Below, in pieces: positions 8,591 through 31,769 of a stretch of 42,896 bases of DNA. The translations under genes were made by a program, and so were the position numbers. The DNA lies in assembly GCA_015039365.1 (NCBI GenBank), contig WION01000450.1, positions 1 through 42,896 of the forward strand, written 5' to 3'. The DNA is from Amanita rubescens (Eukaryota; Basidiomycota; Agaricomycetes; Agaricales; Amanitaceae). Under the pieces are notes generated by a model. The model was not told where the DNA came from. It saw only the letters and a list, made by a program, of their open reading frames with translations, and made no database searches. Every line of letters begins with the position of its first letter. Within the stretch, counting starts at the first letter, position 1.

Positions 8591-10153
8591 ATGTTGCGAG
8601 CTCTAATCAAGAATAATGCTGGCCTCTTCCTGATCGTCGCATCGGAAGTGTTCTATGCGCTCATGAATGTATCAGTCAAGGTTCTTACGACACACTGGCA
8701 AGAAGAGTTGCAAGTTCCCGTTTTGGAGGTATTTTTATAACAAATCAAATCCCGTACAGTTTCTTACTTACGTTTCCAGATTATATTGCTCAGGATGGTG
8801 AGTTCTGATGATTACCCGATATCCCAGGAATGAGCTTACTTACGTTTCCAGATTATATTGCTCAGGATGGTGAGTTCTGATGATTACCCGATATCCCAGG
8901 AATGAGCTAAACATAAAATCGTCTGAAGATCGTAACATACGTTTTCTCTGTTGTGTACATGTAAGTCTTAATTCGACGCCTAATACCATCGAACTTATCC
9001 AGGGAAAGGTTATGCGCGAAAATAAACCAGCCAATCCTGGGCCCACCTGGCGTTCGATGGCTGCTCATGAGTCGTGGTTTCTTTGGGTAGGCACTGAATT
9101 CAAATCATTGACGACCGATGATAACCACTCACTCTACCCCAAGATTCGTTGGTGTCTTTGGAATCTATCACGCATTGCAATACCTTTCGCTCTCCGATTC
9201 CATCGTCCTTACTCTCCTCACGCCCTTATCCACGGCCGTCGGTGGCTTACTTTTTCTCGAGGAGAAATTCAGCAGGCGAGAAGCATTGGCAGGGAGTTGC
9301 GTATATTTACCAACCATTTTTGACTTTAAATAAGATGCTGACCTTCTTTTTTCGTTCTAGTCGTCAGTCTAATTGGCGTGATTTTGATCGCTCGGCCTTT
9401 TGGACTCGACGGGCACACTAACAGAAACGATGATGACGAGAGCATAGGACAGCGGACGGTGGCTGTTTGGTGCGCTCTTGCCTCATTCTTTATACTTTTC
9501 CAGGCTTAAACTTGATGTAGCACGGCTTTACTTAGCGTCCTTGGAACTTCCGTCGCATGTAAATCAAATTTCTTATCTATAAAATGGCGCTATAATTGAC
9601 AGCATTATCTAGACATTTCAATACGAGCGATAGGAAAGCGTGCTCATTCCCTCCATAGCATGACCTATTTCTCTTTTTGGAGTGTCGTTATGTCTTCTGT
9701 TGTGTAAGTTTCTCTCACGTCGAATTCTCCAGTATATCTGACACGGCCCCCAGCTTGATCGCAACACGTACACCCATAGTGATCCCCAGACAAGAGTCAT
9801 TTGTCTACATGCTCTTCCTGATTGGCATCTTTGGATTTATTGCCCAAACGCTCATGACCATTGGTTACCAAATTGAAGCGGCGGGTAGAGCTTCGATGGG
9901 TATATACTCCCAAGTGGTTTTCGGAGTAATTTTGGAACGCCTTGTGTTTGGGACTGTGCCAGGCCTTTTGTCGATTTTGGGGACGTGTTTGATTTTGAGT
10001 TCGGGTTTGTATGTAACGATGACGAAGGCGAAAGAGGGAGGGGTCGATTCTACTACATACGGCAAGATCGCATTACCAGAAGGGGAGGATGTCGAGGCAG
10101 GTTGTGCCTTACCTGAACCGTACGAGGATGGTAATATGGAGGACGATAGATGA
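8591..10153 (+). CDS. EamA/DMT-superfamily membrane transporter, copy B
   Basis: Its gene structure parallels copy A: 8591-8728, 8852-8869 (or 8780-8797), 8929-8960, 9003-9086, 9144-9295, 9361-9469, 9521-9558, 9613-9703 and 9754-10153. Used with one version of exon 2 this is 354 codons in frame. Protein landmarks match copy A: MLRALIKNNAGLFLIVASEV, GPPGVRWLLMSRGFFGF, YLSLSDSIVL, ISIRAIGKRAH, GYQIEAAGRASMGIY. For exon 7 I chose the acceptor at 9520, which restores the 38-nt length seen in copy A. The 18-nt exon 2 is present twice with its own splice sites. The C-terminal tail diverges but stays acidic. The gene looks functional; the substrate is unknown. Confidence 0.87.
8763..8906 (+). repeat. 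72-bp perfect tandem duplication containing a mini-exon
   Basis: Bases 8763-8834 are repeated exactly at 8835-8906. Each unit holds the acceptor TTTCCAG, the 18-nt exon at 8780-8797 or 8852-8869, and the donor GTGAGT. Copy A of the gene has only one such exon (5628-5645). Perfect identity points to a recent event. Confidence 0.95.
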
Positions 10154-26645: not shown

Positions 26646-29600
26646 TCACTGGGTCACATGGGTAGTAATCTGTTCATAGAGAAATGTATACAAATCATCC
26701 TCATCAGAGGGTATAGACTTTGAAGTCATCTGAATCTTCAGGTTCTCTGCACAGTCTTGTGTCTTGAACTGGTCCAAGGCATCCAAGATTGAAGCCTGGA
26801 TTGGCTTCTTGATAAAGAATGATAGCTTGGCAATGATATTGATTGCTTTTGGATATTAGCCCAGCAAGTAAATCCAACATAATTGAACACATTACCAACT
26901 AGGATTTGGCAAGCTGTGATCTGATCACAAGAGGGTTAATTGCATATTGTATATCAAAGATATGTAGGTCTTACATCCTTGAAAAAGCTTGTTTTTGCAT
27001 CTCCAAATGAAGAGAAAAGCTCAGACTTTGAATGATGATAGGCAATACTCTTCAATTGAAATTTAGATGTGAACATACTAGCTATGTAAGAGATGAATTA
27101 GCATGTTCATTAAAACCATTAATAATATCATTTCTCACCTAAAGGAGTGAAAGAATAAATCTGTCACAAAGGGGTGTAAATAATATCTTACAATCTATGA
27201 ATATACAGCAGTAAAATCAATGAAGAAAAAAAAATATGAGTAGGCTAGTCTTTACTTACTTTCTGATGAGTTTACACATGTCACTAAGTTGTACACTTTG
27301 GGAAAAACTTGATCCACTTACCTCCTATTGACAATGGATGAGATATTCATGCCCAAGTACGGTGTGCATTGCTACTCACTGTCTGTTAATCATGTGCTGA
27401 AGTTACCCATAAAACAAGGATTGTGGCACTCACTGCCTAACATCATGCAATGCAATATAGTAACAATGTCTAGGAGAAAAAATACAGTGGCACTCACTTC
27501 CTTTTTCAGGTGATGAATTGTAATAAGAAGTTGGCATGTCCATATTGTATTACTCACTTCCTGATGGTCATGGGATGAGATGATAAGATATAAGCCTCAA
27601 GAGAATTTCATTTAAAATCACTTACCACCTGTTGGACATTGGATTGGAATCAATTGAGATTCTCCAATAAAATATGATATTGCTTACTTCCTGTTGATGA
27701 GGAATTGCATTTGATAAGGTTCCCAAAATAACAGAATCACTTACTTCCTACTCCATCAATGCAATGTAATACTATGATGAGAGCTGAGGAAAGGAATATG
27801 GTGTCACTTACAAACTGTCCATGATAGAATTGAATGTGATGATATTAATTGGCAGAATAAATGTATCATCACTTACAAACTGACAATTAATACATGTAAC
27901 ACTGATGAGAATGTGCAGCAGATCAATGCCGGTGTCACTCACTGTCTGGTCATTATGGGATAGTAGTAGGAGTTTGCCCGGTAAAAGATATATATGTTTC
28001 TTACCATCTATTGGTCATGGATGAGACTCGGACTGCATAAGTGGAAATATGTGCAATATGACTTACACTCTTTTGGTCATGCAATAAAGTATGTAGAAAA
28101 GGAAAATGCATTGTTACTCACTTTCTGTAGGTCAATCATGTCATGAGTGGTTTAAGTTGAAAGAAAGAGGATATTCAGTGATACACACAAGCTTTTGTCA
28201 CAAGGTGAGTGTGTTTAACAAAAAAAGAAAGGTATAGTGGTGCATACTTGCTGTTCATTGTATTGCAATGAGATGAACTGAGGAAAATGTAAAGTGTCAC
28301 TTACCATAGTGGCTCCCTATTGATCATGTTGAAAGATCACCTGGTGGGGAAATGTCCAATTTGACTCACATGCTGTCATGAGAGATGTAAAAAAACTGCC
28401 TTTCAGAAAAAATTGAATAACACTTACGTGCTATTGGTCATATTAATCAATAGAACTTATATGTTACAGCATTCCTTACATTCTGTTGTCATGGGACAAA
28501 ATGTGACAAAACTATTTGAAGAAAGATTCCTTCTTACCACCATCTGTTGGAAATGCAATAAGACATGATGGGAAAACTTGCCAACCAGTGTCACTGCACC
28601 ACTTACATACTGTTCACATTGCTTAACGCAACACAAGGCTATCATTCACTATCACTCACTCTCTGTTTGATTTATGACATGACTCAGATAAACATATCTG
28701 AGAGAGATGGCCTGGTGCTCACTGTCTGTTGGTCATGGGATAAGACCATCTGCCATAAAGTTTATGCTACTGCTCACTCTCTGTTGGTCAATGTATGAGA
28801 TATGATATTATAAATGTGGAGTTACTTACTGTCTGTTGTTAATAGAATGAGACTAAAAAAAAAAAATATAATGTATCACTGACTGTCTATGACCAAAGAA
28901 AATCAAAAACACATGAGGTTGGGCATGATGTCACTAACAAACTGTTTGCCATCAAATGATATATTCTTTAGACTAGCTGAGGAGATGTGCATAACATCAC
29001 TCACTTTCTGTAGACCACAAAATTTGGCAGATGAGATTTCCTGACAGGAATAAATGCAGCATTGCTTACATCCTGTTGGAATAAGATATGGAGACTGCCT
29101 GAGAGATCAGATATGCCACAGTCCACTTACAGACTGTTACAACAGTGTATGCCAAGATCTTTGAGGTTGCAGTAAAACAAATCCACAGCATCACTCACAA
29201 ACTGTTGATAGTCTGAAAACTGCCTGACCACCACAAATTGTAATGCTTACAAGCTATTCATCATGCATGGGAACAGTGTTTAGTGGGAAATAACAGTGTG
29301 ACTTACTGTCTATTAGTCACAACATTTTAATCAGTGAGGCTGCCATCTAGCAAACAGTTGATGTTACTCACTTTCTATTGGTGATATACATGATGAGATG
29401 GCCTGGAAAAAATGTGCAGATTCACTTACAAACTGTTGTGATCAGATGAGGTCAGGAGTGAGTGCTTGGCACTCTATTGCAATGTTACTACTCACTTCCT
29501 CCTGGTCATGAAATGAGATCAGGTGTTCTACAATAAAGGGTTACATAAAAGCCCACTGTCTATTTGGCATGATGTTGAACACCCAAGAGAAATGTACAAA

Positions 29601-31769
29601 GTCAAGGCTCACTGGCTGTTGGTCATGAAATGGGATGCAGTCAAAGCAATTAAAACAAAGTATGCTCACCTTCTATTGACAATAGGATAAAATGAAATGA
29701 GATCCCTACACAAAACTGGGTAAACTTACTGTCTGTTAGTCACAAGGTGACTCAAATGAGATGATGTTCCTAGCAGTGAAATGTACAGCACCACTCACTG
29801 CCTTTTAGTCATGTAGCATCAGATGCAAAGCCTCTGGCAGAGAATGTGGGGTATACTCACTTTATTCAGTTGCAAATTAGGATATGCATGGTGCATCTTT
29901 GCAGAAAAAAAAGTGATACTTGCAGTCTGTTGGAATTGAGATAGCATGGTAATGTGTGGTGTGGAATATAACACACTCTCTAGTATTTGTTGTACAATGT
30001 TTATGTAATCAAATGGCCTATCAGAATATAATTTTGCTCACTGGAGTTCTGGTGTGGCCATGGATGAGATGCATGAAAAGCATGGGTGAAAAATGGGTCA
30101 TGTCACTCACAAACTGGTGCCAATGGTAAGATGAACACTTATCAGGGTCATGGCTACTTCTTACCCACTATTATAAATGTCATTAGATAACTGTAGAACA
30201 TGTTGCAGTTTCACTCACATTCATTTCATTATCCTGTTTTCAAGATGTCATTGCCTGTCAGACCTTCCTACAGGTCAAGGGGAAAAGTGTAACATACATC
30301 CTGATTATCAGTTAACCAAGCATTTCTTTTGGAAAAATCATACTCACATCCTATTTCAATTTTCCCAACAGTCCATGTGTCTTTGCACAAATAGAGCTCA
30401 CATTTCTGTCTACCTGATTTTTACTTAGCTTTGTAGATCCACATCACAATATTTTGCAAACCTACCCAATAATGGGGAAACTTGCTAAGAACCATGCTCA
30501 TGACTGTACTCCATGAGAGTTCACTTTGAGCCAAGATATGTCTAAGGGTAGTTAATATCTGAAATTAACATTCTGAATCTGATCCTCACTGAAGTGCAGT
30601 ATTTGAACAAAGATCAAGATTGTTCATTTGTGTTGAGACAAAGAGTTCTTGTAGGCTACTATCATCAATTGCTTCTGCTGTCACTGTAGCTAATTCAGGA
30701 CAGTCCTTCTCTGGCAAATCCATATCTGCCAAAAATCATTACTTTTGCAACAAGGATTATTTGTTTTTCCTCCCTTCCAATTGTACATATGCTTTTGGAG
30801 GATGTTTAGTGTTCAAAACCTTGGGCAGATAAATTTGCTGGAAAGCAGCATTAGCATTTATCCTAGCTTCACCCCACTTATCTTTATCTTCTCCTGAATC
30901 ACACAATTTTCCATATTCTGCAATGATTTGGCCATCAAATTTAGTGAATATAGTCACCAAGGGGACTATTTAGATGAAATTTATATGTATGTAGACTGCA
31001 GTTGGCCTTGGACAGGACTTACCCTTCCCAGTTCCCTTGCTGAAAAATTCAAGTTCTGCAGATAAGAGAGGGCGAGGGCTGTCCATGGGTATACAATACC
31101 TATGAAAATTCATTCATTCACAGCAATGCAAAGAACCAGAATAAAATACCAAATTGCATGTAGCTGATCTCTTAGCTCAATTGAAGCAGAACGCTTTTCA
31201 ATGAATTTCCAAACAAGCTCCAGCTCCTCAGTACCACCAGATTCAAATCCTTGGGAATCATGGAAGACAAAGTTGCTGCCTTTATAAGTAATCTGGTGCT
31301 CAATCTCATGGAGACCCCTCTGAAGATTGTTGCAATCCATGAAAGCATCCATATTCCTTTATTTGACTCACTTCAGCAGATGGCATCAAATGTGTTTTAG
31401 AGGGTTCCAGTTTTTCACCTAAAAATCCTGAATGTCACAACAGTAGAAGCCTTTATTTTAGCTCAGCTTACCATTCTGGTCATATATCATGGAGATTGTC
31501 CCCCGTGCCACACTACAAACCTTCTCAAGAATGGTTGTTTTTCCAGCATTAGCCCTCCCTATGACAAGGATACGAAAATAGGGGCATCTGTATCGATCTT
31601 TAAGTGTCCTAAGCAAGAAGTCTGCATCGGTTAGCAAGTCAAATTCAGATCCAAACAACTGATGATAAAACTCACTGGACACCTTGCCGGAATTGTAGTT
31701 TAACTTTGAAATCTCTGCCAGCCTTGATTGACGACTCGGATGTGCATCGGTGATCTCCGAGTCTGCCAT
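26646..31769 (-). CDS. HSR1-like G-domain protein assembled from about 65 exons
   Basis: Seven ordinary exons (31769-31472, 31418-31372, 31319-31150, 31099-31023, 30965-30774, 30725-30590, 30541-30466) encode a GTPase domain. It has a P-loop GRANAGKTT, switch II DSQGFESGG, TKFD as the base-recognition motif, and a helical part ending in KFPHYW. Then come 55 micro-exons (27079-30413). Three ordinary exons (27025-26975, 26920-26896, 26845-26646) encode SELFSSFGDAKTSFFKD, ITACQILV, and a hydrophobic to acidic tail ending EQITTHVTQ. Exon lengths and phases all agree: 332 + 67 + 17 + 75 codons, a 490-residue product. I start at MADSEITD; a Met seven codons upstream is possible. One donor, after 30774, reads GG instead of GT, and two micro-exons lack an AG acceptor, so expression of the full product is not assured. 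The block is A+T-rich compared with its neighbours. Confidence 0.72.
27079..30413 (-). other. Array of 55 micro-exons, 50 of them a single codon
   Basis: Each site reads (C/T/A)AG, then 3n bases, then a donor, mostly GTGAGT or GTAAGT. In transcription order, as lowest + coordinate and residue: 30402 VDRN, 30348 D, 30298 D, 30219 DNEMN, 30165 W, 30111 F, 30042 P(?), 29977 R, 29924 T, 29861 K(?), 29799 A, 29730 T, 29670 K, 29613 P, 29557 T, 29496 EE, 29430 F, 29372 K, 29307 T, 29251 L, 29199 F, 29131 S, 29070 D, 29005 K, 28939 F, 28884 T, 28830 T, 28778 R, 28723 T, 28660 R, 28607 Y, 28538 MV, 28480 N, 28428 H, 28370 H, 28305 GATM, 28248 Q, 28189 L, 28122 K, 28067 S, 28005 M, 27943 T, 27877 F, 27812 F, 27745 E, 27688 E, 27626 V, 27558 E, 27498 E, 27434 A, 27380 T, 27322 E, 27260 K, 27192 I, 27079 L. 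Introns between them are 47-66 nt, the size used elsewhere in this genome. All junctions are phase 0 and none of the codons is a stop. Entries marked (?) lack a proper acceptor. Confidence 0.7.
27133..27141 (-). promoter_or_regulatory. Candidate recursive splice site (zero-length exon)
   Basis: On the minus strand TTTAG is followed at once by GTGAGA, with no exon bases between 27139 and 27138. The two flanking intron halves would be 53 and 57 nt, both normal intron sizes here. The site lies between the micro-exons at 27192 and 27079. Confidence 0.5.

Follow-up and report, generated by a model that had tools for sequence, protein, structure and literature searches.

Can part of a protein be spelled one codon at a time, from dozens of consecutive exons that hold a single codon each? 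The question is raised by a minus-strand gene at positions 26646-31769 of a 42,896-nucleotide contig of the mushroom Amanita rubescens (WION01000450.1 in GCA_015039365.1; contig C386 within the 75.7-Mb assembly). We call this whole contig the window. Between the ordinary exons of a G domain and those of a C-terminal domain the gene carries an array of short introns set one codon apart. We argue that the array very probably codes for a variable loop of a GTPase that resembles dynamins and immunity-related GTPases (IRGs), with about 50 single-codon exons predicted to be joined. What carries the argument is demonstrated coding constraint, the demonstrated order and inclusion of such codons in a spliced homologue, and the location and variability of the arrays. 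That the window copy itself is spliced in this way we infer from its relatives and from selection. The original prediction, made from the letters of the window, saw a single gene of this kind; it is in fact one member of a large family bearing such arrays.

The original prediction counted 55 sites of the form YAG-(3n)-GTRAGT, 50 of them single-codon and the rest holding 2, 2, 4, 4 and 5 codons. The array is present, but a literal scan of 26646-31769 finds 28 such sites (25 single-codon, the others 6, 12 and 15 nt). The remainder are near-consensus, with donors GTGAGC, GTAAGC, GTATGT, GTTAGT or GTCAGT and acceptors AAG. The best in-frame, stop-free chain starts where KFPHYW ends (30466), reaches SELFSSFG (27025), has 52 exons and reads VDRNDDDNEMNWFRMHHAYPNLQLNKATKPTEFKTLFSDKFTTRTRYMVNHHGATMQLKSMTFFEEVEETEKIL. 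Single codons do dominate it, but at 47 of 52; the other exons are 6, 12, 12, 15 and 36 nt long. If the frame is left free, 53 exons make up the best chain; 46 are at 3 nt and three are off-frame (4, 7 and 22 nt). The score favours 3 nt in both chains. A preference-free scan considers donor sites with an acceptor at most 24 nt upstream and a donor before that acceptor. Across the window and 20 sampled stretches the exon is 3 nt at 205 of 223 such donors; reversed sequence gives 2 exons of that length. Among chained exons, 387/405 are 3 nt in the sampled stretches without the near-copies L032 and L033 (5 exons in reversed sequence), and 485/507 in the fully read stretches. L001-L008 overlap L009 and are left out of all counts. 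Nearly all array units are whole codons in phase 0. The parts of the window gene are these:

30467..31769, minus strand: G-domain part, with ordinary exons and introns (MADSEITDAH... GRANAGKTT P-loop ... TKFD ... KFPHYW), from open frames.
27079..30413, minus strand: micro-exon array of 52 exons (47 single-codon), from the forced in-frame chain.
30219..30233, minus strand: five-codon micro-exon DNEMN, which opens the family motif NEIxWF, from the in-frame chain.
30111..30167, minus strand: single-codon exons W (30167-30165) and F (30113-30111), which complete NEMNWF, from the in-frame chain.
27434..27436, minus strand: extra single-codon exon GCA, included in the original prediction's count, which the chain passes over by taking a 115-nt intron.
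26975..27025, minus strand: first ordinary exon past the array, SELFSSFGDAKT..., like PELFSVFGE of the homologue P0031; its 3' end is as set in the original prediction.
26648..26846, minus strand: region of the last C-terminal exon (...IKKPIQASILDALDQFKTQDCAENLKIQ...), from open frames, with a tblastn match at 26667-26846.

The array part spells VDRNDDDNEMNWFR...EEVEETEKIL across introns of mostly 47-66 nt. Both of its ends match the family plan, with NEMNWF at the start (compare HNEIDWF in P0029 and SNEIKWF in P0006) and EKIL-SELFSSFGD at the end. With spliced homologues as queries tblastn matches the G-domain region at 30463-31604, and the window gene has protein hits to the A. rubescens family, its two best hits among them.

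The spacing of such arrays can be examined across the whole genome by counting adjacent micro-exon pairs that flank an intron of 44-69 nt. There are 4,640 pairs of 3-nt exons (2,471 + 2,169), against 4 for the reversed-pattern control. Pairs of 2-nt exons number 10 (control 25), 6 of them in young arrays of C13 and C749, and pairs of 4-nt exons number 6 (control 8). Pairs whose first exon is TRA, a stop, occur 7 times, and with C replacing T (CRA) 891 times. Stops are avoided well beyond the window. None of the 485 single codons of the fully read stretches, a set that includes L032 and L033, is a stop, where per-position base frequencies predict 26 (p 2e-12). The chaining used here allows stops. 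The printed peptides of the 405-exon set contain none either. CpG is also 10 times commoner within the codons than in the introns (17 CGN among 485 codons; p 5e-11), and this retention is a further sign of selection on the codons.

The window gene is found on at least four further contigs at 94-98% identity: L029 (C117), L030 (C772), L031 (C778) and L032 (C10). These are haplotypes or segmental copies. The same copy is often found on several contigs, so the assembly likely contains more than one haplotype, and counts of copies are counts of places. The window copy was compared with these four, of which L032 is the most different. Against L032 the GT is changed at 0/106 sites and the AG at 1/106, the sole change being at 29498; an acceptor 3 nt further upstream there yields a two-codon exon. 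The intron interiors are changed at 209/2,683 positions, the single codons at 5/141 and the G-domain exons at 24/979. Splice sites are held while intron interiors drift, as the original prediction had it, but the interiors are less different from each other than it implied, since 36 of 50 resemble one master intron. The codons drift less than the interiors against L032, a difference that is by itself small; against L030 and L031 codons (6/141) and interiors (115/2,686 and 114/2,687) change at the same rate. L029 has single-base gaps where the window and L030 differ and is likely an assembly mixture, and the rates rest on L032.

It is worth considering another line of evidence, the spliced homologues. 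JGI contigs some 1.5 kb in length carry long, uninterrupted open reading frames (ORFs): P0029 (478 aa; its contig has 1,486 bases), P0031 (445) and P0038 (461). P0083 and P0093 are more distant uninterrupted homologues. We read the JGI contigs as probable cDNA because introns are missing from the ORFs. P0029, P0031 and P0038 share one plan, KFPHYW, then a variable stretch, then the C-terminal domain. The variable stretch is conserved at its start (NEIDWF, NEVDWF and NAVDWF) and at its end (REILPELFSVFG or REILPGLLSLF). The nearest gene to P0029 is at C1:29.7-34.8k (L009), with 88 and 91% identity in two exon matches. The array of L009 was chained in frame without any protein, its end acceptor being picked by score among nine. 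All 46 of its single-codon exons align with P0029, 39 of them identical, and the longest ungapped run is 26. The alignment scores 229, where 1,000 shuffles have a mean of 41.5 and a maximum of 76. A 57-nt "exon" of the chain, very probably a wrong call, stands opposite two residues of P0029, and for a W exon of P0029 the in-frame chain offers nothing equivalent. A further eight array peptides were compared with seven homologues. Those of L010, L012, L013, L015 and L017 outscore every one of 500 shuffles with one or more of the homologues, more weakly than L009 (z 4.8-5.9). Together with stop avoidance and the kept GT and AG, a homologue that spells a paralogous array supports the claim that the single-codon exons are spliced into a continuous peptide.

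The residue-by-residue claim rests on the protein-free chain of L009 and not on protein-guided alignment. A protein-guided spliced alignment with strong splice-site weight was rejected for drifting: shuffled transcripts yielded 40 single-codon exons, 3 of them identical, and the real transcript yielded 38, of which 23 were identical. With splice sites down-weighted there are 25 single-codon exons, 19 identical, where the best of 30 shuffles has 6 identical; a looser setting gives 29 exons, 23 identical. For L017 with P0025 and with P0086 the spliced alignment stopped ahead of the array (0 exons). It was unconvincing for L011 (14/45 identical with P0086, 12/44 with P0083) and for L015 with P0031 (8/16). 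We take these five pairs to be paralogues whose loops differ. When the spliced loop and C-terminus were used to look for more homologues, only P0031, P0038 and P0029 itself came up. In P0006 the loop residues run into VCDIAQF, which is near the translated master intron VSDIAHF. This is most simply explained if P0006 is a transcript with one array intron retained.

The arrays sit at one place in one kind of gene. In 13 of 16 array stretches the order is G domain, array, C-terminal domain on the same strand; L017 and L033 have the G domain and array, and L018 the array and C-terminal domain. Beyond these 16, L034 and L035 have both domains, while only the G domain was found in L036 and, weakly, in L037. 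Thus all 20 array stretches tested have at least one of the two domains, G or C-terminal, and 10/10 arbitrary stretches on other contigs (L019-L028) have none of G domain, array and C-terminal domain. The G domain gives at least 278 exon matches at E <=0.001 with 150 of 783 candidates scored; these are matches exon by exon, hence not a gene count. On viral contigs the three-unit pattern matched four times; each match is a short tandem repeat, and none has a chained array.

The protein is a GTPase. The P-loop GxxxxGK[ST] is GRANAGKTT in the window and GRANAGKTT, GKANAGKTT or GRANSGKTT in 23 of 24 aligned proteins, the exception being P0086, a fragment without that region. The best domain models of five spliced homologues are GTPases (MMR_HSR1, Arf), above the curated cut-off only for P0093, and NACHT, ankyrin and WD models at E up to 1 are found in none of the five. 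In the AlphaFold model of P0031 residues 295-345 have a confidence (pLDDT) below 50 and lie between ordered domains. The top structural matches over the G domain and helical part are immunity-related GTPases (Irga6, GM4951) and dynamin-like proteins, the IRG matches having 8-15% sequence identity and a TM score of 0.3-0.4. The best E value of a PDB sequence search is 0.36. The long variable loop is probably the fungal family's own.

An FPHxW-like motif, which marks the start of the array, is present in 43 of 120 fetched family proteins, and 31 of these stop no more than 30 residues past it, so gene predictors probably miss these array genes. The proteins that end there include ones from A. rubescens, A. 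brunnescens and Mycena galopus (P0114). Since truncated proteins of this kind occur across species, such arrays may be widespread in Agaricomycetes. Some of them end in DVSV or NVSS, which resembles a read-through donor.

Where did the introns come from? Among window introns of 45-80 nt, the interiors of 36/50 lie above the 95th percentile of shuffles when compared with one master intron, and they look like decayed copies of that single intron. The 62-nt master has 352 exact copies in the genome (179 + 173; reversed control 0). Among the 100 of 352 sites listed, 99 are clustered on C13, C79 and C82 and one is on C12. Intron identity is independent of distance along the array. L037 1258-2643 is an array of another intron, with a mean pairwise identity of 87% and no clear similarity to the master. 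It too has 3-nt exons beside a divergent G domain, and the same intron type occurs at C13:358k and C45:115k. Because L037 uses an unrelated-looking intron, array formation probably began from different introns on two or more occasions. Yet another intron-like repeat (GTAAGTGATTCAGG...), the third, lies at C321:99870-100026 and C605:4467, its units separated by spacers of 4 nt and 3 nt.

The young arrays are informative about how introns and codons relate; their rates are taken over introns that depart from the master by 3 differences or fewer. In L034, 41 of 48 introns are identical, and exon bases are off the commonest base at 33/129 (26%) against 7/2,976 (0.24%) for introns. The corresponding figures are 28/87 against 39/2,782 in L035 and 52/135 against 43/2,380 in L036, where no exon is off-length. 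L035 1919-5262 (C749) has many identical introns and many exons of 1, 2 and 4 nt, and looks out of frame; it is perhaps a decaying copy or an assembly error. Identical non-master introns of four arrays share the 5' codon in 7/41 pairs and the 3' codon in 5/41, roughly what the background of 8-14% predicts. Most of the sharing pairs lie in L036, where codon runs were duplicated; in L034 and L035 together only 1/28 share the codon on each side. The master-intron pairs of L034 speak against complete decoupling: their flanking codon is the same in 24% (194 and 196 of 820), compared with 14% array-wide. When 13 arrays are pooled, near-copies included, codon identity increases just slightly with rising intron identity, from about 5-8% to 10-12%; in the highest class codons are shared in 5/28 and 2/28 pairs. 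Per-base codon identity is 0.31-0.44 throughout.

Copies also differ in length. L036 and L042 are 91.6% identical across their best-aligned 2.5 kb, but have 55 and 24 units. They share the start GAA GAA CCT AAA CAA and the end GAT ... AAA, and the codons between differ. Within L036 there are repeated blocks of as many as 6 codons in unchanged order. It must be noted that unit counts in arrays of identical units hinge on the assembly. An allele comparison of L011 with L033 (99.86% identical over 5,038 columns) was uninformative. Adjacent codons are not significantly alike (lag 1 32/325, shuffled mean 26, p 0.12), which leaves the idea of a target-site duplication undecided.

Several observations weigh against reading the arrays as spliced coding sequence. 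The splice-site model was trained on 3-nt-exon sites of the same stretches. Exons are off-length at 5/48 in L034 and 16/45 in L035, and some array copies may be non-functional. The JGI contigs may be processed genomic copies rather than cDNA, and the joint from the L009 array to the C-terminal exon did not resolve in frame. The window peptide falls just below the best of 500 shuffles against the spliced homologues (score 44 against 45, z 4.0), and the peptides of L011 and L030 likewise fail to beat 500 shuffles against the seven homologues. In P0089, an annotated A. rubescens protein, FPHYW joins the C-terminal domain directly, so it is possible that the array is skipped in some gene, or just in the annotation.

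Even so, we argue for coding sequence, and the most likely route to a protein would be as follows. Each short intron would be recognised by intron definition and removed singly, one after another, since a 3-nt exon cannot hold both splice complexes. The product would be one full-length GTPase with the loop exposed and disordered. The young arrays suggest that the introns would be kept uniform through copying that omits the codons. Units could be gained, lost and reshuffled without a break in frame, and the loop would alter residue by residue. Intron-only copying together with gain and loss of units would then be the source of loop diversity. We offer only tentatively the larger idea that these are codon-cassette arrays, a genomic system that edits a protein loop by single residues via intron-only copying. 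The loop would be re-spelled by adding, dropping and swapping single codons, and the frame could hardly break. A recognition role for the loop seems likely, given the analogy to Tuber NLR genes and the variability of the loop; a role in recognising non-self is the least certain step in our interpretation.

One can imagine that the array is a non-coding repeat within one long intron, that its YAG-NNN-GT sites are decoys and that in transcripts 30466 is spliced straight to 27025. The original prediction notes that such a joint keeps the frame, the introns are repeats of one family and P0089 is annotated without the array. Against it stand the strict 3-nt spacing and stop avoidance across the genome, the tenfold CpG rate in CGN codons (p 5e-11) and a peptide matched by a spliced homologue, and we consider it very improbable indeed. 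A second scenario accepts that the codons are read but holds that each donor is free to pair, in frame, with any of the acceptors beyond it and that one gene makes many loop variants by skipping codons, as proposed for Tuber. Nearly all units are phase-0 whole codons and almost any skip keeps the frame, the alternative splicing of codon-sized micro-exons in T. melanosporum is a precedent, and P0089 could be a loop-less isoform (or annotation). P0029 nevertheless holds the 46 single-codon residues of its paralogue's array, with an ungapped run of 26, which makes faithful inclusion at least one outcome. We consider combinatorial splicing somewhat unlikely.

The uniform introns raise the question of whether the codons matter at all. 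A selfish intron, or introner, could have invaded between the codons of one exon and been tolerated by the host, the loop being variable merely because it is unconstrained. The 352 exact copies of one 62-nt intron fit this, as do identical variant introns that mostly stand beside unrelated codons (1/28 on each side in L034 and L035) and a second intron family that forms the L037 array. Random insertion would not be expected to give a constant exon length of one codon, nor does it agree with unit numbers that differ more than 2-fold between close copies or with 20/20 tested array stretches being tied to one gene family. We therefore think it unlikely. It is less likely again that the exon triplet is a mutation hot spot, with a targeted process rewriting three bases and leaving the introns untouched. 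The excess of exon over intron substitutions in L034 looks like this, and the L035 exons that measure 1, 2 or 4 nt could be its traces. In the older window array, however, codons change less than introns between copies (5/141 against 209/2,683), and L036 repeats runs of up to 6 codons in order.

Two further features of the window can be set beside these. CpG observed/expected is 0.05 in the array (27026-30466) and 0.21 in the G domain, against about 0.83-1.15 in the rest of the window, two gene-overlapping 3-kb blocks excepted. The gene is a CpG-depleted block with sharp borders, likely through methylation of a repeated family. The CpG loss of the array would fit cytosine methylation and repeat decay, and such loss would also account for the scarcity of codons ending in C before GT (2/485). 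Two perfect 72-bp tandem copies lie at 8763-8908, and the same 72-bp unit is on C10 at 47,015.

How does this compare with known systems? Schistosoma micro-exon genes have symmetric tiny exons in series and a variable product. They share the serial tiny exons with the arrays described here; their exons are longer, at 6-36 nt, and code for secreted proteins. The original prediction knew of no other run of such length, but in this it was mistaken. According to the passages cited, the NACHT-ANK (nank) NLR genes of Tuber melanosporum have dozens of 3-bp mini-exons, and these codon-sized micro-exons are described as alternatively spliced (PMC4986451, PMC10197012, PMC3689799, PMC9815663, which cite the account of Iotti et al. 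2012). As far as those passages go, both systems have rows of dozens of codon-sized exons in an expanded fungal family with a nucleotide-binding domain, and the micro-exons of Tuber are proposed to diversify the recognition part, a role similar to the one proposed here. Tuber is an ascomycete with NACHT-ANK proteins, whereas A. rubescens is a basidiomycete with a GTPase and an array between G domain and helical domain. Near-identical introns decoupled from codons, as in A. rubescens, are not mentioned for Tuber in the passages cited. The introners of fungi and algae, in the part of the literature cited, also consist of many near-identical short introns per genome (PMC9860276), which recalls the 352 exact copies here; unlike them, the introns of A. 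rubescens are crowded together, one codon from the next, at a single site in a single gene family. A search of the literature on micro-exon arrays in mushrooms, with most subscription papers outside its coverage, found no account of the A. rubescens family. What is new is that the organism is a basidiomycete and the protein an IRG-like GTPase, together with the scale of the system and its uniform introns, which are largely decoupled from the codons.

Accurate splicing of dozens of 3-nt exons is at the presumed limit of the spliceosome. A genome with thousands of 3-nt exons makes that limit testable by ordinary long-read RNA. Because intron copies and the adjoining codons are largely decoupled, the arrays bear on the origin of new introns, and they bear on how fungi vary their recognition proteins. 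If the codon-cassette idea is true, this mushroom would have an immune-like repertoire of perhaps hundreds of GTPases.

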